NCBI GenBank assembly: GCA_017503785.1
Contig: JAFVSK010000009.1
Location: 1 to 45,113 of the forward strand
Origin: Clostridia bacterium
GTDB lineage: Bacteria; Bacillota; Clostridia; Oscillospirales; Acutalibacteraceae
Direction: 5' to 3'
DNA length: 45,113 nucleotides
This document shows positions 5,317-45,113 of this stretch, piece by piece (positions within the stretch are counted from its first letter, which is position 1; every line of letters begins with the position of its first letter). The notes under the pieces were generated by a model that did not search any database, was not told the DNA's origin, and saw only the letters and a program-made list of their open reading frames with translations. A program made the position numbers and the translations under genes.

Positions 5317-6342
5317 ATGAAATCGAAAGTAAAAGACAGAGGCTTATTTGTTGCAGGTGTTGCGATCTGCTTTGCGGTGGCGGGCTTGTCGGTTTTGGTG
5401 GAAAAGCTGATTCCGGGCGAGCTGCTGGGAGCCTCCATTGTTGCCCTGTTCATGGGTACCATCATTAACAGCTTTTTTCATCCGGCGTGGATCAAGCCGG
5501 CACTTAAATTTACGTCTAAAAGGATTTTAAAGGTTGCCATTATTCTTTTAGGTGCATCGCTGTCGATCAACACGATTATGTCGGTGGGGAAGATGACCTT
5601 TTTTGTGATGATCTTTACGTTTGCCATGTGCTTTGGCGGCGGCTATTTCGTGCGCAAGATTTTCGGTCTTAACTGGAAATTGGGCAACCTGATCTCGGCC
5701 GGCACCGGCATCTGCGGCGGTTCGGCCATTGCGGCTATCGCTCCCGTAATTGATGCTGAGGATAAGGATATTGCTTTCGCCATGTCGTCCACGTTCCTTT
5801 TTGATATGGTGATGATCGCGCTGTATCCGCTTATGGGTAGAGCGTTGGGACTGTCAGATATCGCCTATGGCATTTGGGCGGGAACGTCGGTGAACGACAC
5901 GGCCAGCGTGGTGGCTTCGGGCTACGCTTTTTCGGAGATCGCCGGCGATTTTGCTACCATGGTTAAGCTTACCAGAACCATTGCGATCATTCCGACAGTG
6001 CTGGTGTTTGCCTACGTTGGTACTCGCATAAAGCAAAAGGAACTGAAAGCGGCAAGCAAAGGCCAAAAGGTGAATTTGGTGAAAATCATCCCGTGGTTTA
6101 TCGGTGGTTTCCTGCTGCTGGCGGTTATAAACAGTGTGGGCTTGATCCCTGAGGCGGCTGCCGGTGTAATCAAAGGGACCAGTAAGTTCTTGATGGTTAC
6201 CGCGTTGGCGGCGATTGGCTTGGGAACGAGTATTACCGACTTTAAAAAGGCCGGACTAAAGCCGATGTTCTACGGTATCACCATTGACACCTTGGTAACG
6301 CTCACAGCACTGATTGTTATTTGGTGCATGGGGTTGCGATAA
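5317..6342 (+). CDS. YeiH/UPF0324-family membrane protein (putative sulfate exporter family)
   Basis: 341 aa with about ten hydrophobic helices. Family signatures are KFTSKRILKVAIILLGASL (about 67-85), GTGICGGSAIAAIAPVI (about 131-147) and GIWAGTSVNDTASVVASGYAF (split by a helix turn). UPF0324 proteins are annotated as putative sulfate or sulfite exporters, but the transported ion is not certain. The ATG at 5317 has TAAGGTG 7-8 nt upstream; a GTG at 5308 in frame overlaps that site. It lies 21 nt after the MFS remnant and 42 nt before an SGNH hydrolase, possibly one transcript. Confidence 0.85.
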   Translation: MKSKVKDRGLFVAGVAICFAVAGLSVLVEKLIPGELLGASIVALFMGTIINSFFHPAWIKPALKFTSKRILKVAIILLGASLSINTIMSVGKMTFFVMIFTFAMCFGGGYFVRKIFGLNWKLGNLISAGTGICGGSAIAAIAPVIDAEDKDIAFAMSSTFLFDMVMIALYPLMGRALGLSDIAYGIWAGTSVNDTASVVASGYAFSEIAGDFATMVKLTRTIAIIPTVLVFAYVGTRIKQKELKAASKGQKVNLVKIIPWFIGGFLLLAVINSVGLIPEAAAGVIKGTSKFLMVTALAAIGLGTSITDFKKAGLKPMFYGITIDTLVTLTALIVIWCMGLR

Positions 6343-7034: not shown

Positions 7035-7892
7035 ATGCGTGCCATGTTTATGAGGTATCCCGGAGGGAAAGCCAAGGCCGTTACGTTCAGCTACGACGAC
7101 GGTGTTCCGCAGGATAAACGCCTGGCGGCCATGTTTGATGAATACGGTTTAAAAGCAACCTTTAATTTCAATAGCGATAAATCTCGGAGTGTTTCGTTTT
7201 CCAAGGAAGAAATTCACGAGTATTTTCTCTCAAAGGGGCACGAAATTGCCGTTCACGGCGCTTTCCACCGAGCGAACGGTCATTTGCGGCCGATCGAGGG
7301 AATACAAGACGTGCTGGATTGCCGGTTGGAGCTGGAGGAAAAATGCGAGCGTATTATCCGAGGGATGGCGTATCCGGATAGTGGAATACGGCGAATGGGA
7401 AACTTGGGAACCTATGAGCAGATCAAAAATTATCTCACAGAGTTGGATATTGCGTATGCCAGAACCTTAGGCGGCGACAACGATACCTTTCATCTGCCGG
7501 AGGATTTCCATGCGTGGATGCCCACGGCTCATCATAACAACCCTCATATTATGGAGTACATTGTTAAGTTTTTGGAAACGGATCTGTCGTCGAACGTGTA
7601 CTACGCTAGGCGCGCGTCGATTTTGCTCTATATTTGGGGACATAGCTATGAGCTCGATAGGGAAAATAACTGGGAGCATATGGAAGCAATTTGCAAAAAG
7701 CTGGCTGCCAACGAGGAACTGTGGTATGCTACCAATATAGAAATATACGATTACGTGCAGGCGTATAAGCAGTTGCAATACAGCGCCGACGGACGTATGA
7801 TTTACAATCCTACGGTACTGACAATCTGGCTTGATGTCGACGGTGTGCTGTACAGCGTGCCGTCCGGCAAGACGATTCGTATAGAAGGTTAA
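7035..7892 (+). CDS. Polysaccharide deacetylase (NodB) family protein
   Basis: 285 aa. Motif 1 is TFSYDDG (Asp21-Asp22, catalytic base and metal ligand) and motif 2 is HGAFH (His74 and His78, the H-x3-H metal site). The C-terminal half contains the WGHSYELD segment often seen in deacetylase-like proteins that lack a secretion signal. No signal peptide is visible. The ATG at 7035 is set by AGGAGTG 6-7 nt upstream; an earlier in-frame start would overlap the preceding gene. Likely substrate an N- or O-acetylated sugar; not determinable here. Confidence 0.82.
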   Translation: MRAMFMRYPGGKAKAVTFSYDDGVPQDKRLAAMFDEYGLKATFNFNSDKSRSVSFSKEEIHEYFLSKGHEIAVHGAFHRANGHLRPIEGIQDVLDCRLELEEKCERIIRGMAYPDSGIRRMGNLGTYEQIKNYLTELDIAYARTLGGDNDTFHLPEDFHAWMPTAHHNNPHIMEYIVKFLETDLSSNVYYARRASILLYIWGHSYELDRENNWEHMEAICKKLAANEELWYATNIEIYDYVQAYKQLQYSADGRMIYNPTVLTIWLDVDGVLYSVPSGKTIRIEG

Positions 7893-7910
7893 TAAACGGA
7901 GGTGCTTACC

Positions 7911-8768
7911 ATGATTCGATTGATGACTCACAACGTATGGAACTGCGACAACAATCATCCCGCTTGGGAGGCTAAGGGGGAGGATTGTTCGGCTGCGGCG
8001 CGAATTGACGGTCTTATCCAAATTTACCGCGATACACAACCGGATATCATCGGCTGTCAGGAGGTTTCCGGCCTGATGGCGGATCTGTTGAAAGAGCGCA
8101 GTCACGAGGCAGGGCTGGACTACACGCTCATTTGGGGGCGCTACACGCCCATTTTGTATCGTGCCGATAAATTTGAACTGGTGGATTCGGCGTTTGGTAC
8201 CTATCCGGAGCATATCGAGGGCTTTGAGGGGACGTTTAACGATGTGCGCTCGAAGGCGTGGAATTTGGGTGTGTTCCGCGAAAAGGCGAGCGGTAAGCTG
8301 TTTATTTTTTGCACCACGCATTTGTGGTGGAAATCCGGTGATGTGAGCAAAAACATGTCCGCCCCCGATTCTTACCAGGCTTTTTCCAATGAGGCGAGAG
8401 AATATCAGATCGCATTGCTGGTAAAAAAAGCGCTGGAATACCGCGAAAAGTACGGATGCCCCGTTGTGCTGGTGGGTGATTTGAATACCGATTATAACTC
8501 CAAGGCGGTGGCGCATTTGTTTGCCAACGGGTTCCGCCACGCGCACGATATCGCTACGGAGTATGCCGAAGAAAGCGTGGGGTATCATTATTGTTTCCCT
8601 GCGGGTTACGAGAAGCAGTATTACGACAAGCCGTTTGAATGGGCGATCGATCATATCGTACTGCTGGGCGAGCCCGAGGGCGCTGTGAAGCGTTTCGAGC
8701 GCTATTCGCCCGACTATTATTTGCCGATCTCCGATCATTCGCCGGCATACATTGATTTAGAACTTTAA
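7911..8768 (+). CDS. Endonuclease/exonuclease/phosphatase-fold enzyme
   Basis: 285 aa of the EEP superfamily (DNase I-like fold). Motifs in order are MTHNVWNCDNN (N-terminal metal Asn, about 5-15), DIIGCQEVSG (metal Glu), TTHLWWKSGD (catalytic His region), VVLVGDLNTDYNS (Asp/Asn pair) and the terminal ISDHSPAYIDLEL with Asp-His. Members include nucleases, phosphodiesterases and inositol or sphingolipid phosphatases, so the substrate is open. The ATG at 7911 follows ACGGAGG by 7-8 nt; the in-frame GTG at 7902 is inside that site. It ends an apparent operon of SGNH hydrolase, deacetylase and this gene. Confidence 0.85.
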   Translation: MIRLMTHNVWNCDNNHPAWEAKGEDCSAAARIDGLIQIYRDTQPDIIGCQEVSGLMADLLKERSHEAGLDYTLIWGRYTPILYRADKFELVDSAFGTYPEHIEGFEGTFNDVRSKAWNLGVFREKASGKLFIFCTTHLWWKSGDVSKNMSAPDSYQAFSNEAREYQIALLVKKALEYREKYGCPVVLVGDLNTDYNSKAVAHLFANGFRHAHDIATEYAEESVGYHYCFPAGYEKQYYDKPFEWAIDHIVLLGEPEGAVKRFERYSPDYYLPISDHSPAYIDLEL

Positions 8769-23330: not shown

Positions 23331-24497
23331 ATGGTATTTGGTATTTTGAAAGACATTAAAGAGGGCGAAAATCGCGTAATCTGCACCCCGATCGAGGTTG
23401 CTTCGATCGTAGCGGCCGGTCACACGGTGCTGGCTCAGCGCGACTGCGGCGTGGGTTCCGGCTTCTCCAACGAGAAGTACGAGGCTGCCGGTGCCGAGAT
23501 CGTTGACACGATGGAGGAAATGTACGCTCGCTGCGATTTCCTGGCCAAGGTCAAGGAGCTGTTCCCCTGCGAATACGATCTTCTTCGTGAGAATCAGCTG
23601 GTGTATTGCTGCATTCATCCCGCCGGTCATCCCGAGGAAGTGGATGCCATTCTGAAGAGCCGCTGCATTGCGCTCACGGCGGAAGACAGCCACCGTTACG
23701 GCTCGCCCAACTGTGAGGCTGCCGGTAAGCAGGGTGCGCTGTTCGGCCTTGAGTCGATGCTCTCCATCAACGGCGGTAAGGGTAAGTTTGTCGGCGGTTT
23801 CGCCGGCGCTCCCGGCATGAACGTGCTGATCCTGGGCGGCGGTGTTGTCGGTCAGGGTGCTTTGTCGGTGCTGTATGCGCTGGGCGCCAACGTGACGGTG
23901 ATGGATATCAACGCCGGCGTGTTGCGTATGCTGAGCGATCGCTACGAGCAGAAGATCAACACCATGTTCTGCACCAAGGAAACCATTGCTGCCCTGCTGC
24001 CGCAGACCGACATGGTCATCAACTGCGTAAAGTGGCCCAAGCAGCGCAAGGATTTCCTCATTGATAAAGAGATGCTGAAGACGATGGAGCCCGGCAGCGT
24101 GCTGGTGGATATCTCCAACGACGATCCCGGTGCGATCGAGTCCAGCCATGAAACGCATCACGACGATCCCCGCTACGTGGTGAACGGCGTTGTGCACTAC
24201 TGCGTGAGCAACATTCCCGGTGCGGTGGCTCACTCCACCTCCGTGGCGCTGGCTGCCGAAACGCTGCCGATGCTGCTCAATGTGATGAACAACGGTTTGG
24301 AAGAGGCCTGCGTGCGTGATGGCTTTATCCGCCGCTGCCTGACGGCCTATAAGGGCTACCTCACTCACGAGGAGACCAGTGCCATTCAGAACCGTCCGTG
24401 GATCCGCCCCGAAGATATTTTGGGCATTGCCGACCGTGCTTTGGATCCCGCACCTCCGGCAACGACCACGCGCAGCAATAACTTCATCAAACTGTAA
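23331..24497 (+). CDS. Alanine dehydrogenase / PNT-family oxidoreductase, divergent
   Basis: 388 aa. The fold is that of alanine dehydrogenase: N-terminal ILKDIKEGENRVICTP (Arg of the substrate site), KVKEL (Lys), YCCIHPA (His), a Rossmann loop LGGGVVGQGA (about 166-175), and NGVVHYCVSNIPGAVAHST near the end. The usual active-site DQGG is replaced by DDPG, and the C-terminus is extended after AYKGYLTHEE. These differences argue that the substrate is not simply alanine. AGGAGG is 8 nt before the ATG. It lies between YitT and an M20 peptidase in one operon; it may oxidise or reduce an amino or imino acid released by that peptidase. Confidence 0.8.
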   Translation: MVFGILKDIKEGENRVICTPIEVASIVAAGHTVLAQRDCGVGSGFSNEKYEAAGAEIVDTMEEMYARCDFLAKVKELFPCEYDLLRENQLVYCCIHPAGHPEEVDAILKSRCIALTAEDSHRYGSPNCEAAGKQGALFGLESMLSINGGKGKFVGGFAGAPGMNVLILGGGVVGQGALSVLYALGANVTVMDINAGVLRMLSDRYEQKINTMFCTKETIAALLPQTDMVINCVKWPKQRKDFLIDKEMLKTMEPGSVLVDISNDDPGAIESSHETHHDDPRYVVNGVVHYCVSNIPGAVAHSTSVALAAETLPMLLNVMNNGLEEACVRDGFIRRCLTAYKGYLTHEETSAIQNRPWIRPEDILGIADRALDPAPPATTTRSNNFIKL

Positions 24498-36075: not shown

Positions 36076-36525
36076 ATGGATGCAATAGACCATCGGATTT
36101 TAGCTTGCCTAAAAGAAAATTCCCGAGAAAATGCTACCAATATCGGTGCCAAAATCAACCTGTCGCCGTCGGCAGTGATCGAGCGCATACGAAAGCTGGA
36201 AAACTCCGGACTCATTCAGCAGTATACGACCATTATCAACCAAAACGTGATCGGTCGCGACCTGATGGCCTTCATTAACGTGCGTTTGGAGCATCCCCAG
36301 CATTACGAGCATTTTGTAGAGATCATTAACAGCAATACGTCGATCGCGGAATGTTATTACATTGCAGGTGATTTTGATTTCTTGCTCAAGGTGGTTACCA
36401 CCACGGGGAAAACGCTGGAGGAGATCTTAACGTATATTAAATCCATTGAGGGTGTTTCCCTTACGCGAACCACGGTGGTATTGTCCACCAACAAGCACGA
36501 GGTGTGCTTGCTTCCCGACGAATAG
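36076..36525 (+). CDS. Lrp/AsnC-family regulator
   Basis: 149 aa. The N-terminal helix-turn-helix is AIDHRILACLKENSREN followed by SPSAVIERIRKLENSGLI (about 3-50); the RAM ligand domain (about 65-145) has GDFDFLLKV. It precedes the transhydrogenase genes by 51 bp on the same strand. Because the first pnt gene starts after an AT-rich gap with a possible TATAAA, it may regulate pnt in response to an amino acid, or simply be its neighbour. Confidence 0.88.
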   Translation: MDAIDHRILACLKENSRENATNIGAKINLSPSAVIERIRKLENSGLIQQYTTIINQNVIGRDLMAFINVRLEHPQHYEHFVEIINSNTSIAECYYIAGDFDFLLKVVTTTGKTLEEILTYIKSIEGVSLTRTTVVLSTNKHEVCLLPDE

Positions 36526-36576: not shown

Positions 36577-37734
36577 ATGGTTATTGGTATTCCTAAGGAA
36601 ATTATGCACGGTGAAGGCCGCGTATCGGCAATTCCGGAAACGGTTGCTAAACTGAAGGCAGACGGTTATGAGGTGCTGGTAGAAAATTCGGCCGGTGACG
36701 GCGCGTTCTTCAGCGACGAGGAGTATGCAGCGGCGGGTGCTACGATGATCGCCGACGTTGCCGAGCTGTATGCGAAAGCGGATATTATCCTCAAGGTTAA
36801 AGAGCCTCAGTTCAACACCGAAAAGAACCTGCACGAAATTGATATGATGCATGCCGGTCAGTACCTGATCACGTTTATTCATCCGGCATCGCCCGTAAAC
36901 CACGAGATGGTGAAAAACATGGCCGCCAAGGGCGTTATCGGTCTTACACTGGACGGTGTGCCGCGTATTTCCCGTGCACAGAACCTCGATGCTCTGACCT
37001 CCATGAGCACCTGCGCCGGCTATAAGGGTATTCTGATTGCCGCTAACGATCTGGCGAAGTTCATTCCGCAGATCTTCTGTGCTGTAGGTATGATCAAGCC
37101 CTGCAACGCCATGGTTATCGGTACCGGTGTTGCCGGCTTGCAGGCATTGGCTACCGCCAAGCGTTTGGGCGCTATCACCTATGCTGCCGACATTCGTCCC
37201 GCCGCTGCCGAGCAGGCAATGAGCTTGGGTGCTAAGATCGTCGATACGGGCGTTCCCGCCGAGATCGCCGTGGGCGAGGGTGGTTATGCCAACGCACTGA
37301 GCGAAGAGTGGCTGGAAAAGGAGCGCGAGGCGCTGAAGGATACCATTAAGGAAATGGATATCGTGTTCTGCTCGGCATTGGTTCCCAGCAAATTGGCTCC
37401 CATTCTGCTCACTGAGGATATGGTGAAATCCATGAAGCCCGGTTCGGTTATCGTGGATATTTCCATTGACCAGGGTGGTAACTGTGCCATCACCGTGCCC
37501 GGTGAAACGGCGGTGAAGCACAAGGTCACTATCGAGGGTATTAAGAACATTCCCGGCATGCTGCCCACCAGCTCCACCTGGATGTTCGCCAACAATATCT
37601 ACAATTTGGTGAAATACTTAACCAAAGACGGCGTGATCGCATTGGATACGAACGACGAGATCGTGCGCGGCATCATGACGACGATCGACGGTGAGATCGT
37701 ACATAAGGGCGCTTTGGAAGCCATGAAAGCCTAA
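36577..37734 (+). CDS. pntAA: NAD(P) transhydrogenase alpha subunit, part 1 (domain I)
   Basis: 385 aa. Domain I binds NAD(H) outside the membrane and exchanges hydride with domain III. Signatures are IGIPKEIMHGEGRVSAIPE (about 3-21), FIHPASPVN, a dinucleotide loop GTGVAGLQAL (about 184-193), DIRPAAAEQAMSLGAK and DISIDQGGNC near the end. The alpha subunit is split: this protein lacks the membrane helices, which are in the next gene. AAAGGGG lies 9 nt before the ATG. Confidence 0.9.
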   Translation: MVIGIPKEIMHGEGRVSAIPETVAKLKADGYEVLVENSAGDGAFFSDEEYAAAGATMIADVAELYAKADIILKVKEPQFNTEKNLHEIDMMHAGQYLITFIHPASPVNHEMVKNMAAKGVIGLTLDGVPRISRAQNLDALTSMSTCAGYKGILIAANDLAKFIPQIFCAVGMIKPCNAMVIGTGVAGLQALATAKRLGAITYAADIRPAAAEQAMSLGAKIVDTGVPAEIAVGEGGYANALSEEWLEKEREALKDTIKEMDIVFCSALVPSKLAPILLTEDMVKSMKPGSVIVDISIDQGGNCAITVPGETAVKHKVTIEGIKNIPGMLPTSSTWMFANNIYNLVKYLTKDGVIALDTNDEIVRGIMTTIDGEIVHKGALEAMKA

Positions 37735-37757: not shown

Positions 37758-38054
37758 ATGTATATGCCTTATATTTTGGTGGGTATTTTTGTGGTGGCCG
37801 CTATTGTTGGCTACTTCATCATCAACAAAGTGCCCACGCTGCTTCATACGCCGCTGATGTCGGGCATGAACGCCCTCTCCGGTATTACCGTGCTGGGTGC
37901 GTTGACCGTGCTGGCGGTAGCGCTGAAAGAAAAAGCCCCCGTAGTTAGCGTGATCATCGGGATTGCGGCAATCGTGTTTGCCATGGTCAATGTGGCCGGT
38001 GGCTTTGCCGTTACCGGCAGAATGCTCAAAATGTTCAAAAAGGAGGACAAGTAA
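37758..38054 (+). CDS. pntAB: NAD(P) transhydrogenase alpha subunit, part 2 (membrane helices)
   Basis: 98 aa with about four helices, the alpha-subunit share of membrane domain II. TPLMSGMNALSGITVLGAL (about 33-51) is the conserved first helix pair and TGRMLKMFKKED the cytoplasmic end. AAGGGAG precedes the ATG. It ends directly at the GTG of pntB. Confidence 0.9.
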   Translation: MYMPYILVGIFVVAAIVGYFIINKVPTLLHTPLMSGMNALSGITVLGALTVLAVALKEKAPVVSVIIGIAAIVFAMVNVAGGFAVTGRMLKMFKKEDK

Positions 38055-39959
38055 GTGATTCCGAATACGGTCTATTACGTTATCAGTGCTGTCCTCGTTT
38101 TGGGTGTGCTGATTGGTATCAGCATGATGAGTAAGGTGAAAAGTGCTAACAGCGGTAATACGCTGTCGGCCGTGTGTGCGTTGGCCGCCATACTGGTGGT
38201 TATGTATAACGCCGAAATCCTCACCGCCTGGCAAGCCTGGCTTGGCATTGCGATCGGCGCGGTAATCGGCCTTTTTGGCGCCGTTAAGGTCAAAATGATC
38301 GAAATGCCGCAGGCGGTGGCGCTGTTGAACGGCTTGGGCGGCTTGGCCAGTGCGCTCGTGGCAATCTTGACCATTGCTCAAGTAACGGATGCCACGCCGA
38401 ATAAATTGTTTGCCCTGTATACCGGCGCGCTGGCGTTGGTGGTGGGCTTTGTCACCTTCACGGGAAGCTTGGTTGCTGCCGGTAAGCTGCACAAGCTGCT
38501 GCCGCAAAAACCGGTTGTTTGGCCGGCTCACTCGGCGATCGTAGCGGTTACGCTGATTGCAACCGCGGCGGTGGTAGTCATCGCTCCCGAGTGTATGTGG
38601 CTCATTTCCGTTTTGTCGGCGTTCTTTGGCATGGCGTTTGCAATTCGCGTTGGCGGTGCCGATATGCCCATTACCATTTCCTTGCTCAACTCGCTTAGCG
38701 GTGTGGCAGGCGGCATTGCCGGTATCGCGGTGGGCGATCCGCTGTTGGTTGCCATCGGCGGTATCGTGGGTGCCTCCGGGTTGCTGCTCACCCAGATCAT
38801 GTGCAAGGCGATGAACCGTAGCCTGCTCAGCATTTTGCTGGGCGGCAAAGCGAAAAAGGCAGCTGCTCCGTCTGTAAAGGCGGAGGAAAAGGTTCAAGCG
38901 AAAACGGAAGAACCGGCTGGCGTTACGGTAGATACGGTTCTTAATACGGCAAAAAAAGTCATGATCGTCCCCGGCTACGGCATGGCGCTCGCACAGGCAC
39001 AAAGCGCGGTGAAGAGCTTGTCGGATAAGCTGGAAGCTAGCGGCGTGGAAGTTAAGTTTGCCATTCATCCGGTAGCGGGTCGTATGCCCGGCCACATGAA
39101 CGTGCTGTTGTGTGAGGTCGACGTTCCGTACGATAAGCTGTACGAAATGGAAGCCGTGAACGGTGAGTTCGCAGAATGTGACGCCGCCATCATCATCGGC
39201 GCAAACGATGTGGTAAACCCCGCAGCCAATACCGCCGAGGGCACGCCCATTTACGGTATGCCTGTGTTGAACGCTGCCGAGGCCAAGAACGTTATCGTTT
39301 GCAACTTTGATACAAAACCCGGCTATGCCGGCGTGCCGAATCCGTTGTACGAGGCTCCCAACACCATCTTGATGCTGGGTGATGCCAAGGAAACCGTAGC
39401 GCAACTGACGGCGGCTATCGGTGCTGCCGCGGCTTCTGCTGAGGAAAAAGCCGATACCGTATCGGTGGGGAGCGTTTTGGGATCGGCAAAGAAAGTGATG
39501 ATCGTCCCCGGCTACGGCATGGCGCTCGCACAGGCACAAAGCGCAGTGAAGAGCTTGTCGGATAAGCTGGAAGCTAGCGGCGTGGAAGTCAAGTTTGCCA
39601 TTCATCCGGTAGCGGGTCGTATGCCCGGCCACATGAACGTGCTGTTGTGTGAGGTCGACGTTCCGTACGATAAGCTGTACGAAATGGAGGCCGTGAACGG
39701 TGAGTTTGCTGAATGTGACGCCGCCATCATCATCGGCGCAAACGACGTGGTAAACCCCGCAGCCAACACCGCCGAGGGCACGCCCATTTACGGTATGCCC
39801 GTGCTGAATGCTGCCGAGGCCAAGAACGTTATCGTTTGCAACTTTGATACGAAGCCCGGCTATGCCGGCGTGCCGAACCCGTTATACGAGGCCCCCAACA
39901 CTATCTTGATGCTGGGTGATGCCAAGGAAACCGTGGCGCAGCTGATCGCTGCATTTTAA
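38055..39959 (+). CDS. pntB: NAD(P) transhydrogenase beta subunit with duplicated domain III
   Basis: 634 aa, compared with about 460 in normal PntB. Residues 1-265 are membrane domain II (nine or so helices). Residues 299-455 are a complete NADP-binding domain III, with VMIVPGYGMALAQAQ, HPVAGRMPGHMNVLL, GANDVVNPAA and GYAGVPNPLY. Residues 478-634 are a second complete domain III, identical to the first except for the last few residues, joined by a 22-residue Ala/Glu linker. The 2'-phosphate site expected as K-R-S before GYAGV reads N-F-D in both copies. The GTG start at 38055 directly follows the pntAB stop with AGGAGG upstream. The enzyme couples hydride transfer between NAD and NADP pools to proton movement; how two domains III share one domain I is unknown. 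Confidence 0.92.
   Translation: MIPNTVYYVISAVLVLGVLIGISMMSKVKSANSGNTLSAVCALAAILVVMYNAEILTAWQAWLGIAIGAVIGLFGAVKVKMIEMPQAVALLNGLGGLASALVAILTIAQVTDATPNKLFALYTGALALVVGFVTFTGSLVAAGKLHKLLPQKPVVWPAHSAIVAVTLIATAAVVVIAPECMWLISVLSAFFGMAFAIRVGGADMPITISLLNSLSGVAGGIAGIAVGDPLLVAIGGIVGASGLLLTQIMCKAMNRSLLSILLGGKAKKAAAPSVKAEEKVQAKTEEPAGVTVDTVLNTAKKVMIVPGYGMALAQAQSAVKSLSDKLEASGVEVKFAIHPVAGRMPGHMNVLLCEVDVPYDKLYEMEAVNGEFAECDAAIIIGANDVVNPAANTAEGTPIYGMPVLNAAEAKNVIVCNFDTKPGYAGVPNPLYEAPNTILMLGDAKETVAQLTAAIGAAAASAEEKADTVSVGSVLGSAKKVMIVPGYGMALAQAQSAVKSLSDKLEASGVEVKFAIHPVAGRMPGHMNVLLCEVDVPYDKLYEMEAVNGEFAECDAAIIIGANDVVNPAANTAEGTPIYGMPVLNAAEAKNVIVCNFDTKPGYAGVPNPLYEAPNTILMLGDAKETVAQLIAAF
38949..39416 (+). repeat. Domain III coding repeat, copy 1
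   Basis: First copy of an approximately 465-bp in-frame tandem repeat; copy 2 starts 537 bp later. By eye, about 18 positions differ, all silent until the last five codons, and most lie in the second half. Confidence 0.9.
39486..39953 (+). repeat. Domain III coding repeat, copy 2
   Basis: Second copy, ending at the pntB stop. See copy 1 at 38949. Confidence 0.9.
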
Positions 39960-40192: not shown

Positions 40193-40238
40193 AATGGATC
40201 CAGCTGTCTGCAGAGAAACCTGGATCCATTTTGTTTTT
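40193..40238 (+). terminator. Leader terminator / attenuator ahead of the V-type ATPase operon
   Basis: 11-bp stem AATGGATCCAG (40193-40203) / CTGGATCCATT (40220-40230), 16-nt loop with an inner CTG/CAG pairing, then TTGTTTTT. It lies about 15 nt after the predicted transcription start and 40 nt before the first gene, so it would yield a 60-nt RNA unless bypassed. Confidence 0.7.
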
Positions 40239-40278
40239 AGCAGTAAATTTATCTAAATATAAAAAAGGAGATAGAATT

Positions 40279-40887
40279 ATGGAAGTTCAACTTCAGGAGC
40301 TTATTGAGCAGATCAAGAAGGACGGTGCGGAGGCTGCCGAGGCGGAAGCCAAGGCTATAGTTGAAGAGGCAAAGTCGGATGCCGAAAAGATTGTTGCGCA
40401 AGCACAGGCGCAGGCAGACAAAATCTTAGCCGATGCAAAAGCTGAAGCTGAGCGAATGACGAAATCAAGTGAGGATGCGATTCGTCAGGCTGGTCGCAAT
40501 CTGCTGATCTCTTTCAGAGAAAGTGTAACAAGAGAACTAAAGGCTGTCGTTGGCGAACAGGTTACGGCAGTATATTCATCAGAGGCGCTCGCAAAGCTGG
40601 TTATCAGTATTGTTGAAAACTGGGCAGATCAGCCTGATGCTGAAGATGTCGCGGTGATCTTGAACACTCAAGACCTTAAAAAATTAGAAGATATCTTTGC
40701 GGCAGCTCTTAAAGAAAAGCTGTTAAAAGGTATTACGTTAAAAGCGAATGATAATTTTGACGGTGGATTCCGTATCGCTGTAAATAGCGGCAGTGCATAT
40801 TACGATTATTCGGCAGAGGCGGTTGTGGATATGCTTTCGAATTATCTTAGTCCTAAGGTTACCGAGCTTTTGAAAGAGGCGAAGTAA
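40279..40887 (+). CDS. atpE: V-type ATP synthase subunit E
   Basis: 202 aa. The N-terminal two fifths is a long Ala/Glu/Lys coiled coil (about 5-80) forming the peripheral stalk; the C-terminal globular part holds GGFRIAVNSGSAYYDYS (about 161-177). It ties the catalytic head to the membrane sector. AAAAGGAG is 8 nt before the ATG at 40279. It is first in the operon, without the I and K genes that often come first in clostridial V-ATPase operons. Confidence 0.88.
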   Translation: MEVQLQELIEQIKKDGAEAAEAEAKAIVEEAKSDAEKIVAQAQAQADKILADAKAEAERMTKSSEDAIRQAGRNLLISFRESVTRELKAVVGEQVTAVYSSEALAKLVISIVENWADQPDAEDVAVILNTQDLKKLEDIFAAALKEKLLKGITLKANDNFDGGFRIAVNSGSAYYDYSAEAVVDMLSNYLSPKVTELLKEAK

Positions 40888-40892
40888 TAACT

Positions 40893-41450
40893 ATGGCTGA
40901 ATATTATTTAATATCGCAGTTGCCGTCTTTGGATGGGATAAGTGAAAACGATCCGCTTCCGATTACCGAAGAACAATTTACAGAGCTATGTAACCGCTTT
41001 TTAGAAAAAAAGTCACAGGAAGCTCTGGAAAAACTTACTTTATCACCTTCTAAAAAATTTGAAAGTTCGGGGTCTGCTTTGATTGATGCCTGGAACGAAA
41101 GAGAAAGAGAACTTCGGTTTGCGCTTGGTAAAGTTCGGGCCGAGAAAATGAAAAAAGTCTTTGACACAGAAAACAGGGTTTTTCCTGTGGAATATATCAA
41201 GGCAGCAAGTGCGGCACTAGAAATAGAAAATCCAATGGAAGCAGAAAAATATCTAAACAGTTACCGCTTGTCGATCTTAGAAACGTTAAGACCCATGGAT
41301 AACTTCTCTGAGGAGTACATCTTCTATTATGGGCTTAAATTAAAATTGCTTCTTCGTATAAGGCAGTTTGATACAAAGAGCGGAGAGCAAGCATACAAAA
41401 ATATATACGACTCCATTTTAAACGGAGATAGGCTGGAGGCAAAACAATGA
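40893..41450 (+). CDS. DUF2764-family protein of V-type ATPase operons
   Basis: 185 aa. It starts with AEYYLISQLPSLDG, the typical opening of the DUF2764 family, which sits between subunits E and A in V-ATPase operons of spirochaetes, Chlamydiae and Bacteroidetes and probably replaces the C/d subunit that couples rotor and stalk. The rest is mainly helical. It overlaps the subunit A gene by 4 nt (ATGA). Confidence 0.8.
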   Translation: MAEYYLISQLPSLDGISENDPLPITEEQFTELCNRFLEKKSQEALEKLTLSPSKKFESSGSALIDAWNERERELRFALGKVRAEKMKKVFDTENRVFPVEYIKAASAALEIENPMEAEKYLNSYRLSILETLRPMDNFSEEYIFYYGLKLKLLLRIRQFDTKSGEQAYKNIYDSILNGDRLEAKQ

Positions 41451-43216
41451 CCGAAAATAAAGGAAAGGTAGTAAGCATAAACGGAAACTTGGTGTCGGTA
41501 GAATTTGACGGCAACGTTTCTATGAACGAAATATGCTACGTTGTTGTGGGGGATACTACCCTTAAAAGCGAGGTTATCCGTATAAAAGGTAACGTAGCAC
41601 AAGTGCAGGTTTATGAAATGACCGATGGCATTCAATGCGGGGATACGGTTGAATTTACGGGAGATATGCTCTCGGCAGATCTCGGCCCCGGATTACTCGG
41701 CCAGATATATGACGGACTGCAAAATCCGCTTCCTATTTTAGCAGAGCAAGCAGGTTGGTTTTTGGAAAGAGGAATTTATGCAGACGGACTCAATACGGAA
41801 AAGAAATGGGAATTCACACCGACTGCGACGGTTGGCGAGAGCGTTCGTGCGGGTGAATACATCGGCACAGTGCCCGAAGGTCCGTTTACACATAAAATTT
41901 TTGTTCCCTTTTATCTGCTTGGGAACTATACGGTAAAATCTATTGCCGACAAGGGCGAATATACCGTTAAAGAAACCATTGCGGTAGTAACCGATGAGCG
42001 AGGCCGCGAGATCCCCATATCCATGTCCTTTAAGTGGCCTGTTAAACGTGCGGTAAAGTGTTATAGCGAGAGATTGGCACCTATTGAAACAATGGAAACC
42101 AAGGTGCGCCTTATCGACTCGTTCTTCCCTGTAGCAAAAGGCGGAACCTATTGCACTCCCGGACCGTTTGGCGCAGGTAAAACGGTGCTACAGCATACCA
42201 CTTCAAAATATGCAGATGTAGATATCGTTATTATCGCCGCCTGCGGTGAGCGTGCAGGTGAGGTTGTTGAAACACTTACCGAGTTTCCCGAACTGACCGA
42301 CCCTAAAACCGGTCGTTCGCTTATGGAACGCACCATTATTATATGTAACACCTCCTCTATGCCCGTTGCTTCCCGCGAAGCTTCGGTTTATACCGCAGTA
42401 ACACTTGCTGAGTACTATCGCCAAATGGGTCTTGATGTTCTTATGTTGGCAGACTCAACCTCTCGCTGGGCACAGGCGATGCGTGAAATGTCGGGCAGAC
42501 TTGAAGAAATTCCCGGCGAGGAGGCTTTCCCCGCATATCTTGAATCGTACATTGCGGCATTTTACGAAAGAGCAGGTTATGTCCGTTTGCCTGACGGCAG
42601 TACGGGTTCTGTTACTATCGGCGGTACGGTATCCCCGGCAGGCGGCAACTTTGAAGAACCCGTAACACAAGCGACCTTAAAAGTTGTAGGTGCTTTCCAC
42701 GGTCTTTCCCGTGAACGTTCGGATGCAAGAAAGTATCCTGCCATTGACCCGCTTATCTCTTGGTCGAAGTATAACAGTGTTATTGATGGTGAAAAGCTGG
42801 AATTTTGCAAGAGAATTCTTCATTACGGTGACGAGATCGGCTCTATGATGAAGGTCGTCGGCGAAGAAGGGACTACACTTTCAGATTACATTACCTATTT
42901 GAAATCTGAAATGCTCGATGCGGTTTATCTGCAACAGAACTCCTTCGATTTGGTTGAGGCAAATTGCGGAAAACAGCGTCAGCGTTATGTTACCGATAAA
43001 CTCGTATATGTTTTAGGCAGCGATTATGCTCTTCCGAATAAAGACGATGCGAGAGGCTTCTTTAACCGTATGCGTCAAAAATTCATCGATTGGAATTACA
43101 CCGAGTTTGAGAGCGAAGCGTTTAAAAAAGCAGAAACTGAGATCGATGAATTGTATCACAAAGGCGAAGGCAAATTAGCCGCGCCCACTGAAAAACTATT
43201 AAAGGACGGTGAATGA
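41447..43216 (+). CDS. atpA: V-type ATP synthase subunit A (catalytic)
   Basis: 589 aa. Catalytic subunit of the V/A-type rotary ATPase. An N-terminal barrel (about 1-75) and the bulge domain precede the nucleotide domain with Walker [10 protein letters not shown] (about 239-247), GERAGEVVE (catalytic Glu region) and the Walker-B strand [12 protein letters not shown]. The C-terminal helical domain is complete. Overlaps of 4 nt on both ends couple it to the genes before and after. In other bacteria such enzymes pump Na+ or H+; the ion is decided by subunits outside this window. Confidence 0.95.
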
Positions 43217-44514
43217 GATTGAATAAAGTATATAATCGAATAGAATCCATTACCGGTAATGTTATCACTGTCCGAGCAAATGGTGTTAAGTATAAGGAAT
43301 TGGCACAGATCAATACACGCTTCGGCAAGTCCTTGGCTCAGGTTAATAAAATTGAGGGAGATATTGTTTCTCTGCAGGTTTTTGCCGGCGGTCAAGGCGT
43401 TTCTACAGGCGATGAAGTGCGCTTCCTCGGCCACGAAATGCGAGTGTCCTTCAGTGAAGATTTGTTAGGACGTATATTCAACGGCTCAGGAGAGCCGAGA
43501 GATAAAGGCCCTGCGCTTACGGAGAATATGAAACCCATCGGTGGCCCCTCTGTGAATCCCACGAAGCGTATTCTCGCCAATCGAATGATGAGAACCAACA
43601 TTCCTATGATTGATATGTTCAACACCTTGGTTGTTTCTCAGAAACTGCCCATTTTCTCAATTTCGGGTGAGCCGTATAACCAACTTCTTGCCCGAATTGC
43701 CATGCAGGCAGAAGCCGATGTAATCGTTCTTGGCGGTATGGGTCTTAAATATGATGACTTCCTGTATTTCAAGGATGCGCTTTCCAAAGGCGGAGCACTC
43801 AGCAAAACCGTTATGTTTATTCATACCGCTTCCGATCCTACCGTTGAGTGCATGATGATTCCCGATATGGTGTTGGCGGTAGCGGAGCAATTTGCGCTTC
43901 AGAATAAGGACGTATTGGTGCTTCTTACCGATATGACCAACTTTGCTGATGCTATGAAGGAAATTGCTATTACGCAGGAACAGGTTCCTTCCAATCGAGG
44001 ATATCCCGGCGACCTGTATTCTCAGCTTGCAGCCCGTTACGAAAAGGCGGTTGATTTTGCTGATTCGGGTTCGGTCACCGTTTTAGCCGTTACTACAATG
44101 CCCGGTGATGACGTTACTCATCCGGTTCCCGACAATACAGGATATATTACCGAAGGTCAGTATTATCTTAAAGGCGGTCGTATAGAGCCGTTCGGTTCTT
44201 TGTCCCGACTGAAGCAAAACGTAAACGGTAAAACACGGAAAGACCATCGAACACTTATGGATGCGATGATTCGCCTGTATTCTTCCTACAAGGAAACGCT
44301 TGAAAAGAAAAACATGGGTTTTTCTATGAGTCGTTGGGATGAAAAACTGCTGAAATACGGGGAACTTTTTGAAAACAAACTAATGTCGCTGTCTGTTAAT
44401 CTTTCGCTTGAAGATGCACTTGATTTGGGATGGGAGATTTTAGCGGATTGCTTTGAAAAAGACGAAACCGGAATCAAGTCAGACCTCGCTGATGAATTTT
44501 GGCCTAAACGTTAA
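43213..44514 (+). CDS. atpB: V-type ATP synthase subunit B (non-catalytic)
   Basis: 433 aa. It lacks a Walker A, as expected for the regulatory B subunit, and keeps the conserved [12 protein letters not shown]-like loop (here [13 protein letters not shown], about 89-101), [29 protein letters not shown] and [12 protein letters not shown]-like [14 protein letters not shown]. Length is normal. The ATG overlaps the subunit A stop (ATGA). Confidence 0.95.
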
Positions 44515-44528
44515 GGAGGTCTGTGGCT

Positions 44529-45113
44529 TTGGCAAAAATCAAACTAACTAAAAATGAGTTGAAGGTACAAAAAGACGCACTTAAAATGTACCGTAGATAT
44601 TTGCCTACTCTAACGCTGAAAAAGCAACAACTCCAATCGGAGATCCGCACGATCGAAGCCCAGGCGAAAGCCGTGAGAAAAGAAAGAGAAGATCTTGAAT
44701 TCGGCTTTCGTGAATGGATCGCTGTTTTCAGTGAAATGGATGCCTTCCCCAAGGGGATCATAGCTGTTAGCAATATTCGCAAAGGGAAAGGGAATATTGC
44801 AGGCGTGGATATTCCTACGTTTGAGGGCGCGGATTTTAAAAGAGGAGATTATGATCTTTACGAAACACCTCTTTGGGTGGATATCGCCGCAAACCATATG
44901 GAAAAGGCAATGTCCCTTGATTTAGAGGCGGAAGTGTTAGATGAACAGGTCAGACTATTAGAGATTGAATTGCTTTCAACTTCTCAAAGAGTCAACCTGT
45001 TTGAAAAGGTTAAAATCCCCGAAACCGAGGAAAATATCAAAAAAATATCGATTTATATGGCAGACCAACAGGTTAGTGCCGTAGTGCGTTCAAAAATATC
45101 AAAACGAAAGATA
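44529..45113 (+). CDS. atpD: V-type ATP synthase subunit D (partial at window end)
   Basis: 195 codons visible, no stop before the window ends. Subunit D is the central rotor stalk: a long antiparallel coiled coil, with LTKNELKVQKDALKMYRRYL at the N-terminus (about 5-24) and a matching C-terminal helix that ends here with VNLFEKVKIPETEENIKKI. The start is the TTG at 44529, 9 nt after AAGGAGG; a GTG at 44523 is too close to that site. Subunits I and K are expected just beyond. Confidence 0.88.
   Translation, partial: MAKIKLTKNELKVQKDALKMYRRYLPTLTLKKQQLQSEIRTIEAQAKAVRKEREDLEFGFREWIAVFSEMDAFPKGIIAVSNIRKGKGNIAGVDIPTFEGADFKRGDYDLYETPLWVDIAANHMEKAMSLDLEAEVLDEQVRLLEIELLSTSQRVNLFEKVKIPETEENIKKISIYMADQQVSAVVRSKISKRKI

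Follow-up and report, generated by a model that had tools for sequence, protein, structure and literature searches.

The pnt Operon and Its Duplicated Domain III

The DNA considered here (the window, meaning the whole stretch of 45,113 nucleotides) is contig JAFVSK010000009.1 of assembly GCA_017503785.1, from a Clostridia bacterium of the Acutalibacteraceae, and the subject of this report is its operon pntAA-pntAB-pntB, located on the plus strand, like all the window features mentioned below. The first gene, pntAA (36577..37734), encodes the 385-residue domain I (dI), recognized through Pfam AlaDh_PNT_N/C, through phmmer matches to solved dI and to alanine dehydrogenase (AlaDH), and through residue comparison. 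The second, pntAB (37758..38054), encodes a small membrane subunit of 98 residues (Pfam PNTB_4TM, 3.4e-29), and the third, pntB (38055..39959), an intact open reading frame (ORF) with a GTG start, encodes a protein of 634 residues. In this protein the membrane domain II (dII; residues 1-264, 38055..38846), with the coupling residues D203 and R255 retained, is followed by a first linker (residues 265-288, 38847..38918), a first domain III (dIII; residues 299-455, 38949..39419), a second, Ala/Glu-rich linker (residues 456-477, 39420..39485) and a second dIII (residues 478-634, 39486..39956), the limits being drawn from sequence and alignment and from an AlphaFold2 model. The model (mean pLDDT 74.9, pTM 0.49) presents two dIII units on low-confidence linkers, with pLDDT below 50 in linker residues 265-288 and 457-469 and also in the loops 342-350 and 521-525 inside the dIII units. 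Its first 24 Foldseek matches in the PDB are all transhydrogenases, and Pfam PNTB covers the protein in two stretches. A match of dIII to PF00205 (32.2 bits, cut-off 30.4) was taken as distant fold similarity. This is the sole PntB found in the assembly, which is 95.3% complete.

The duplication, proposed in a first-pass annotation made from the sequence, is real. Residues 478-634 repeat residues 299-455 in register, 179 residues (537 nt) further on. In the 149 codons for residues 303-451, 18 of 447 nucleotides are different between the copies, 17 of these in codon position 3 and one in position 1, and not a single amino acid is changed (dN 0, dS approximately 0.20 by NG86); by a simple random-substitution estimate, the chance of 18 out of 18 differences being silent is 1e-10. 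The only replacements within residues 299-455 are T452I and I455F, so the annotation was also right that the differences stay silent until the last codons, and both copies look to be under purifying selection. The two linkers are unrelated to each other. As both copies and linkers diverge, and as tandem dIII arrays are also found in single-contig genomes (below), an assembly artefact, which the annotation had already discounted, can be rejected.

Copy Number and Distribution of Domain III

Relatives were classed by the motif that they carry in dIII, Asn-x-Asp in the clade of the window protein and K-R-S/G in the conventional proteins. In a first survey of GTDB contigs, 22 of 81 loci (the best 80 of 592 confirmed stretches, plus the window) encoded two to four tandem dIII, a proportion that favors multi-copy relatives, since the query was a two-dIII protein and only the best stretches were kept. 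The surveys of the window's family and phylum employed a single dIII as the query. With both types of dIII counted, 7 of the 200 family genomes were positive (G196 being the conventional one), as were 53 of the 398 genomes from the phylum, including at least seven conventional ones; presence is thus patchy. Among 60 complete PntB of the clade, 26 possess one dIII, 20 two, ten three and four four (34/60 with more than one), whereas all 42 complete conventional PntB possess a single one; these counts leave aside 16 loci (cut by a contig end, containing N, decayed or with the motif uncovered) and the duplicates L127, L147, and L160. The arrangement is therefore not peculiar to this locus. Three single-contig genomes carry arrays, of four dIII in a protein of 1015 residues (G415) and of two each in G408 and G580. 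One more example is the family of Treponema putidum, where PntB matches occur in 14 of 118 genomes, eight of them conventional and six of the clade type with two dIII; both dIII are intact in five of the six, each on a contig approximately as long as its genome, and in the sixth (L204) copy 2 is frameshifted. A clade-type and a conventional operon coexist in Mariniphaga anaerophila, and each has the residue set of its type. The members of the clade are mostly oxygen-avoiding bacteria.

A number of loci depart from these patterns. In L134 (G208) and L135 (G343), both kept out of the copy counts, dIII is interrupted by what could be mistaken for inserted elements but consists of runs of N, and draft genomes may understate the size of arrays whose copies are alike. 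In L136 (G255, a two-contig genome of the window's phylum) the pnt operon has decayed, in L040 pntAB and pntB are apparently fused in one reading frame of 643 residues, and G508 possesses two separate single-dIII pntB genes (C212 and C230), the latter with the motif NKD (in L117). In the conventional genome G718, approximately 3 kb separate a full pntB from a detached dIII gene of 172 residues that follows it (L213, reverse strand, oriented 7576-8094), and there is a pntB remnant of 224 residues on another contig (L214, reverse strand, oriented 1438-2112).

Evolution of the Copies

In the tree built from dII alone, a single branch with an SH-aLRT of 100 divides the 66 clade rows from the 41 conventional ones. 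Within the clade, at least 15 switches between single and multiple dIII are required among 60 proteins. Of 38 multi-copy proteins, 22 have copies that group exclusively with one another (FastTree) and 16 do not. When the window locus (L001) is compared with L002, both having two copies, the site patterns are 100 concerted to 2 positional to 2 crossed, while the second linkers of the two look alike by eye; gene conversion, one of the options of the first-pass annotation, thus has visible concerted evolution on its side. Different histories are apparent elsewhere. Of the 79 informative patterns of L144 and L145, 68 are positional; the last copy of L018 is far closer to that of L019 (identity 0.936) than either is to its neighboring copies (0.55-0.61); and the treponeme copies carry both concerted and positional signals. 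The last dIII of all four of these proteins (L018, L019, L144, and L145) is strongly diverged (motif YNLDR) yet conserved from one sister lineage to the other, suggesting a specialized head. In L122, from a single-contig genome, four copies share identities of 0.975-0.994. In L128 (G280), a third dIII lies past the stop codon in broken frames (oriented 5338-5808), beside two intact copies; decay in relatives, which the first-pass annotation had named as counting against its reading, thus occurs, at least here and in copy 2 of L204, and the window copies are free of it. Later copies agree with the 57 near-invariant sites of single-copy proteins as often as first copies do (0.988 vs. 0.985; this comparison included three duplicate loci removed later). 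The mixed concerted and positional signals and the near-invariant sites together describe copies that are homogenized in many lineages, sometimes specialized, occasionally decaying (L128 and L204), and otherwise functional-looking.

It could be argued that the extra dIII have no mechanistic role, being a harmless tandem repeat that grows and shrinks by unequal crossing-over. The frequent switches, the near-identical four-copy array of L122 and the decaying copies agree with such a repeat, but it would not be expected to leave later copies as faithful to the near-invariant sites as first copies, nor to let position-specific copies persist in L018/L019 and L144/L145, nor to maintain a two-copy array common to six genomes of the T. 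putidum family and intact in five, nor to spare all 42 conventional proteins from tandem expansion. We regard this explanation as doubtful, if still one to be taken seriously.

The Cofactor Motif of Domain III

In the Escherichia coli enzyme, K424-R425-S426 are placed at the NADPH site, and loops D and E determine the preference for NADP(H) over NAD(H), according to PMC9529548. In the conventional dIII of our set, loop E reads K-R-S/G, with K in 42/42 and S or G in 42/42. Both copies of the window protein read Asn-Phe-Asp instead, at residues 417-419 (39303..39311) and 596-598 (39840..39848) by alignment. None of the three KRS residues survives in the clade, N417 and D419 being present in 66/66 proteins and Asn-x-Asp in all 132 dIII copies that span the motif (12 further pieces do not cover it). 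That the motif separates the classes is true by definition, since the classes were named by it, but that the dII tree and the residues of dI (below) divide along the same line are independent facts. An invariant Asp together with the loss of Lys and Arg is what is expected of an NAD(H) site in Rossmann enzymes in general. The motif swap thus predicts that the dIII of the clade probably bind NAD(H), and the label of NADP-binding domains, given to the window copies by the first-pass annotation, appears doubtful, the NADP motif being gone from both.

Alanine Dehydrogenase Residues in Domain I

A second clade-wide change, missed like the motif swap by the first-pass annotation, concerns PntA. Among 56 clade dI sequences (pairwise identity 0.62 on average and at least 0.47; the decayed L136 excluded), 61 columns are invariant, and five of these, K75, E76, H102, P106, and D298, are rare (10% or less) in 41 conventional dI. 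K75, E76, H102, and D298 are each found in 56/56 clade sequences, and in 1/41, 0/41, 0/41, and 2/41, respectively, of the conventional ones (37 of which have E at the position of D298). In an alignment with five AlaDH that exceed the TIGR00518 cut-off, K75, H102, and D298 correspond to K75, H96, and D270 of AlaDH, and R15, common to the clade, the conventional proteins and AlaDH, completes the catalytic set. In AlaDH, pyruvate is bound by Arg15 and Lys75 and the active site includes a His and Asp270, while replacement of R15, K75, H96, or D269 by Ala abolishes activity (PMC10401832, whose numbering alternates between Asp269 and Asp270 and between His95 and His96; PMC4691113 gives His96 and Asp270). 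Counting those of 57 clade rows that have the column, R15 is present in 55/55, K75 in 56/56, H96 in 57/57, and D270 in 56/56, and further AlaDH residues are also kept (M133 in 57/57, S134 in 57/57, and N301 in 56/56). The window protein has all four catalytic residues along with an NAD(H) site bearing the RQD loop; its codons for K75-E76 lie at 36799..36804, for H102 at 36880..36882, and for D298 at 37468..37470 (column scan of dI). The association extends to 13 loci fully read later, among which all five of the clade type (L204-L208) have the R/K/E/H/D set and none of the eight conventional ones (L182, L209, L210, L212, L213, L215, L216, and L217) has K75, E76, H102, or D298; L211 was partly covered and L214 uncovered.

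The loop by which dI serves a transhydrogenase is maintained as well (R133 is R in 51 and K in six of 57, and Q135 and D138 are found in 57/57), and thus both jobs of dI look retained. A reversal of roles, with NADP held in dI, was considered and dropped: the acidic D205 is conserved wherever the clade alignment covers it (56/56), and dI therefore stays of the NAD type. In trees of dI with the five AlaDH as the outgroup, a quick tree broke up the clade, and a tree constrained to hold the clade together was not worse (p-AU 0.739).

An alternative explanation of these data is an ordinary proton-translocating NADH:NADP+ transhydrogenase, in which loop E would bind NADP(H) otherwise, for example through K421, the AlaDH-like residues would be inherited for folding or nucleotide contacts, and the extra dIII would result from slippage. 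The operon, the three domains, the coupling residues and the RQD loop are indeed unchanged, and a Lys at position 421, beside the motif, has been gained in 51 of 66 clade proteins. However, the remaining 15 do without it, the KRS motif is fully replaced, with an invariant Asp (66/66) in place of S/G that is expected to repel the phosphate, vestigial residues are unlikely to stay at 56/56 where just 61 columns are invariant, and one organism, M. anaerophila, maintains both types. We consider this explanation unlikely.

Catalytic residues say more about the chemistry than about the side chain of the substrate, and dI could be an active amino-acid dehydrogenase that acts on glycine, serine or another 2-oxo acid, or one that works only as a gradient-driven amino-acid oxidase. 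The position of AlaDH E118 is occupied by D throughout the clade, which would fit a different substrate, and several relatives come from animal guts or feces, judging by record titles, with treponemes of the oral type also included, so that amino-acid fermentation, plausible in such organisms, may be part of their physiology. The conservation of M133, S134, and N301 nevertheless favors an AlaDH-like pocket, leaving a substrate other than alanine, or oxidation as the only direction, an improbable choice.

Genomic Context

Upstream of pntAA by 51 bp, the window encodes a regulator of the Lrp/AsnC family (36076..36525; NCBIfam Lrp/AsnC-type matches, under cut-offs). A gene 55-73% identical to it occupies the same place in nine of 54 other clade loci and in none of 40 conventional ones (tblastn), a comparison in which distant regulators could be missed, the query being the window's own regulator; the 54 loci are what remains of 55 after subtraction of L001, a duplicate of the window whose flank ends before the regulator. 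By Pfam, the nearest upstream ORF is of the Lrp/AsnC type in 8/51 clade loci, and this family is not among the 25 listed for 39 conventional upstream ORFs, where it could account for at most one of the 39. Among 57 flanking proteins from 32 clade loci (out of 69 ORFs picked at 36 loci), AsnC domains are the most frequent (five), followed by ABC transporters (four; 25 of 105 families listed). On these counts, the idea of a conserved partner gene was dropped.

A separate AlaDH over the TIGR00518 cut-off is encoded by 11 of 41 hand-picked clade genomes vs. 72 of 149 genomes sampled from the phylum or, once the clade genomes are removed, approximately 68 of 131 (Fisher p 0.007, uncorrected for kinship). 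The 18 clade genomes removed by hand, four of them over the cut-off, included G344 (motif unread) and G255 (decayed operon), and the two clade sets overlap. Both the regulator context and the rarer separate AlaDH are supporting hints for the reading proposed below, each of them weak.

The window itself encodes a second AlaDH-like protein of 388 residues (23331-24497), which scores 271-272 bits to TIGR00518 (cut-off 391.85) and possesses the equivalents of R15, K75, H96, and D270, with NDDPG where IDQGG is expected; downstream of it are ORFs resembling, by eye, an M20-type peptidase and an MmgE/PrpD protein. On the other side of the pnt operon, approximately 270 bp 3' of pntB, starts what appears by eye to be a V/A-type ATPase-like operon (40231-45113).

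That neighbor bears on one more explanation, a redox-gated proton leak, in which NAD(H) in dI and NAD(H) in dIII would swap hydride to and fro, let protons in and spill energy. Both sites do look specific for NAD(H), and an ATPase-like operon does follow pntB in the window, but a V/A-type ATPase is not among the 25 commonest families, either of the 57 flanking proteins of the 32 other clade loci or of the 51 upstream ORFs, and the strictly kept AlaDH residues would be left unexplained. We consider a leak very improbable.

A Proposed Proton-Coupled Alanine Dehydrogenase

The sequence evidence taken together leads us to propose, with a probability of about 0.5, that the enzyme of this clade is a proton-coupled alanine (amino-acid) dehydrogenase with an NAD(H)-carrying dIII. 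As PntA has the catalytic residues of AlaDH, the mechanism is probably not ordinary transhydrogenation. The first-pass annotation had expected a second dIII to change both stoichiometry and mechanism: a changed ratio of dI to dIII does follow from the anatomy of the protein, and it is the ordinary transhydrogenation assumed as the starting point that probably does not apply.

The product of pntAA-pntAB-pntB would thus be a proton-translocating enzyme built on a transhydrogenase frame, with dI doubling as an alanine (2-oxo-acid/amino-acid) dehydrogenase and dIII holding NAD(H) in place of NADP(H). NADH would load on one dIII, and dII would couple the passage of protons to dIII loading and occlusion, as in the ordinary transhydrogenase. 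The residues for this coupling are well maintained in the clade, D203 in 66/66, N212 in 65/66, and R255 in 61/66 (D203 and R255 corresponding to beta-D213 and beta-R265 of E. coli). The loaded dIII would then dock on dI, pass hydride to the NAD+ held there, and leave, upon which the NADH in dI would reduce pyruvate and NH4+ to alanine via R15, K75, H102, and D298. The net reaction would be NADH + pyruvate + NH4+ -> NAD+ + alanine, with protons pumped out, or, in the alternative direction, amino-acid oxidation would be driven by the proton gradient. Exchange between NAD and NAD alone would be futile, and an amino-acid site in dI would remove this paradox. In the conventional enzyme, the dI dimer binds one dIII tightly and another weakly, and the dimer's two dIII are oppositely oriented (PMC5742237). 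By analogy with tandem lipoyl domains, the two to four dIII of a clade PntB could act as parallel swinging arms on shared dI sites, the tethered dIII loading in parallel and queuing while dI alternates between dIII and the acid substrate, while gene conversion and unequal exchange would maintain their similarity. As to the energetics, the alanine couple lies at approximately -0.13 V and the NAD couple at approximately -0.32 V, providing approximately 37 kJ/mol under standard conditions, and less in cells, so that either direction, at near one proton per hydride, should be possible.

A more specific form of this proposal, a hitherto unrecognized primary ion pump in which an AlaDH/transhydrogenase hybrid with up to four NAD(H) heads per subunit carries out the NADH-driven reductive amination of pyruvate (or its reverse), is put forward tentatively, at somewhat less than even odds.

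A number of observations weigh against a proton-coupled AlaDH. The Lys at 421 might partly serve the 2'-phosphate, and this is the main caution as to the cofactor. The window's dI scores only 167.9 bits to the TIGR00518 equivalog, below its cut-off of 391.85, and the clade has D in 57/57 at the position of E118. In five of 66 proteins, position 255 is not R. The motif swap and the dI residues separate on one deep branch, and their association thus counts as one evolutionary event, strictly though it has been maintained ever since. The extra arms cannot be required, since 26 of the 60 clade proteins make do with one dIII, some of the extra copies decay, and extra dIII are not wholly confined to the clade, as the case of G718 shows, though they are not fused in tandem there. 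No Lrp/AsnC gene was found next to most of the clade loci (45/54), 11 of the 41 clade genomes encode a canonical AlaDH as well, and these 41 span several phyla while the comparison sample comes from a single one. Finally, sequence sets neither the substrate nor the direction.

Relation to Known Systems and Significance

The closest known system is the Re/Si NAD(P) transhydrogenase (PntAB/NNT), as represented by the enzymes of E. coli, Thermus thermophilus, Rhodospirillum rubrum and sheep, with which the clade shares the succession dI-dII-dIII, the split pntAA-pntAB-pntB operon, the RQD loop in dI, the coupling residues of dII and the fold of dIII. The clade differs in having one to four dIII per PntB rather than one, Asn-x-Asp rather than KRS, and K75, H102, and D298 in dI. 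The window proteins also fall below the respective NCBIfam equivalog cut-offs, PntB with 538.6 of 689 bits (NF006974) and PntA with 369.4 of 383 bits, the latter model covering the unsplit alpha subunit. L-alanine dehydrogenase (Ald, TIGR00518), for its part, is homologous to dI and has R15, K75, H96, D270, S134, M133, and N301 in common with it, whereas the clade dI remains under the family cut-off, has the RQD loop, is encoded together with dII and dIII, and has D for E118. An analogy for the array is the E2 component of pyruvate dehydrogenase, which possesses one to three tandem lipoyl domains, their number varying with the species, on flexible Ala-rich linkers that give them access to shared active sites. 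The two have in common near-identical tandem carrier domains of varying copy number on flexible, Ala-rich linkers, but fold and chemistry are unrelated, the putative carrier of the clade being a non-covalent nicotinamide rather than lipoyl-lysine and being coupled to protons across the membrane. In the open-access literature, in which the classical transhydrogenase work is probably under-represented, we found no account of tandem dIII, of an Asn-x-Asp PntB or of a proton-coupled AlaDH.

Clade genes would match NADPH-making transhydrogenases in annotation, which is probably wrong clade-wide. The natural variants with one to four dIII would help to establish the number of dIII that one dI dimer is able to use, a question that bears on the alternating dIII mechanism. 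A testable origin of transhydrogenase from AlaDH would also follow: if AlaDH is the proper outgroup, then the clade keeps the ancestral active site, and the classical NADP-making transhydrogenase arose by the loss of this site and a change of the dIII cofactor. If the proposal is true, fermenting anaerobes would conserve energy in the formation of alanine, an electron sink usually counted as yielding none, or, alternatively, they would employ the proton gradient to drive the oxidation of amino acids.

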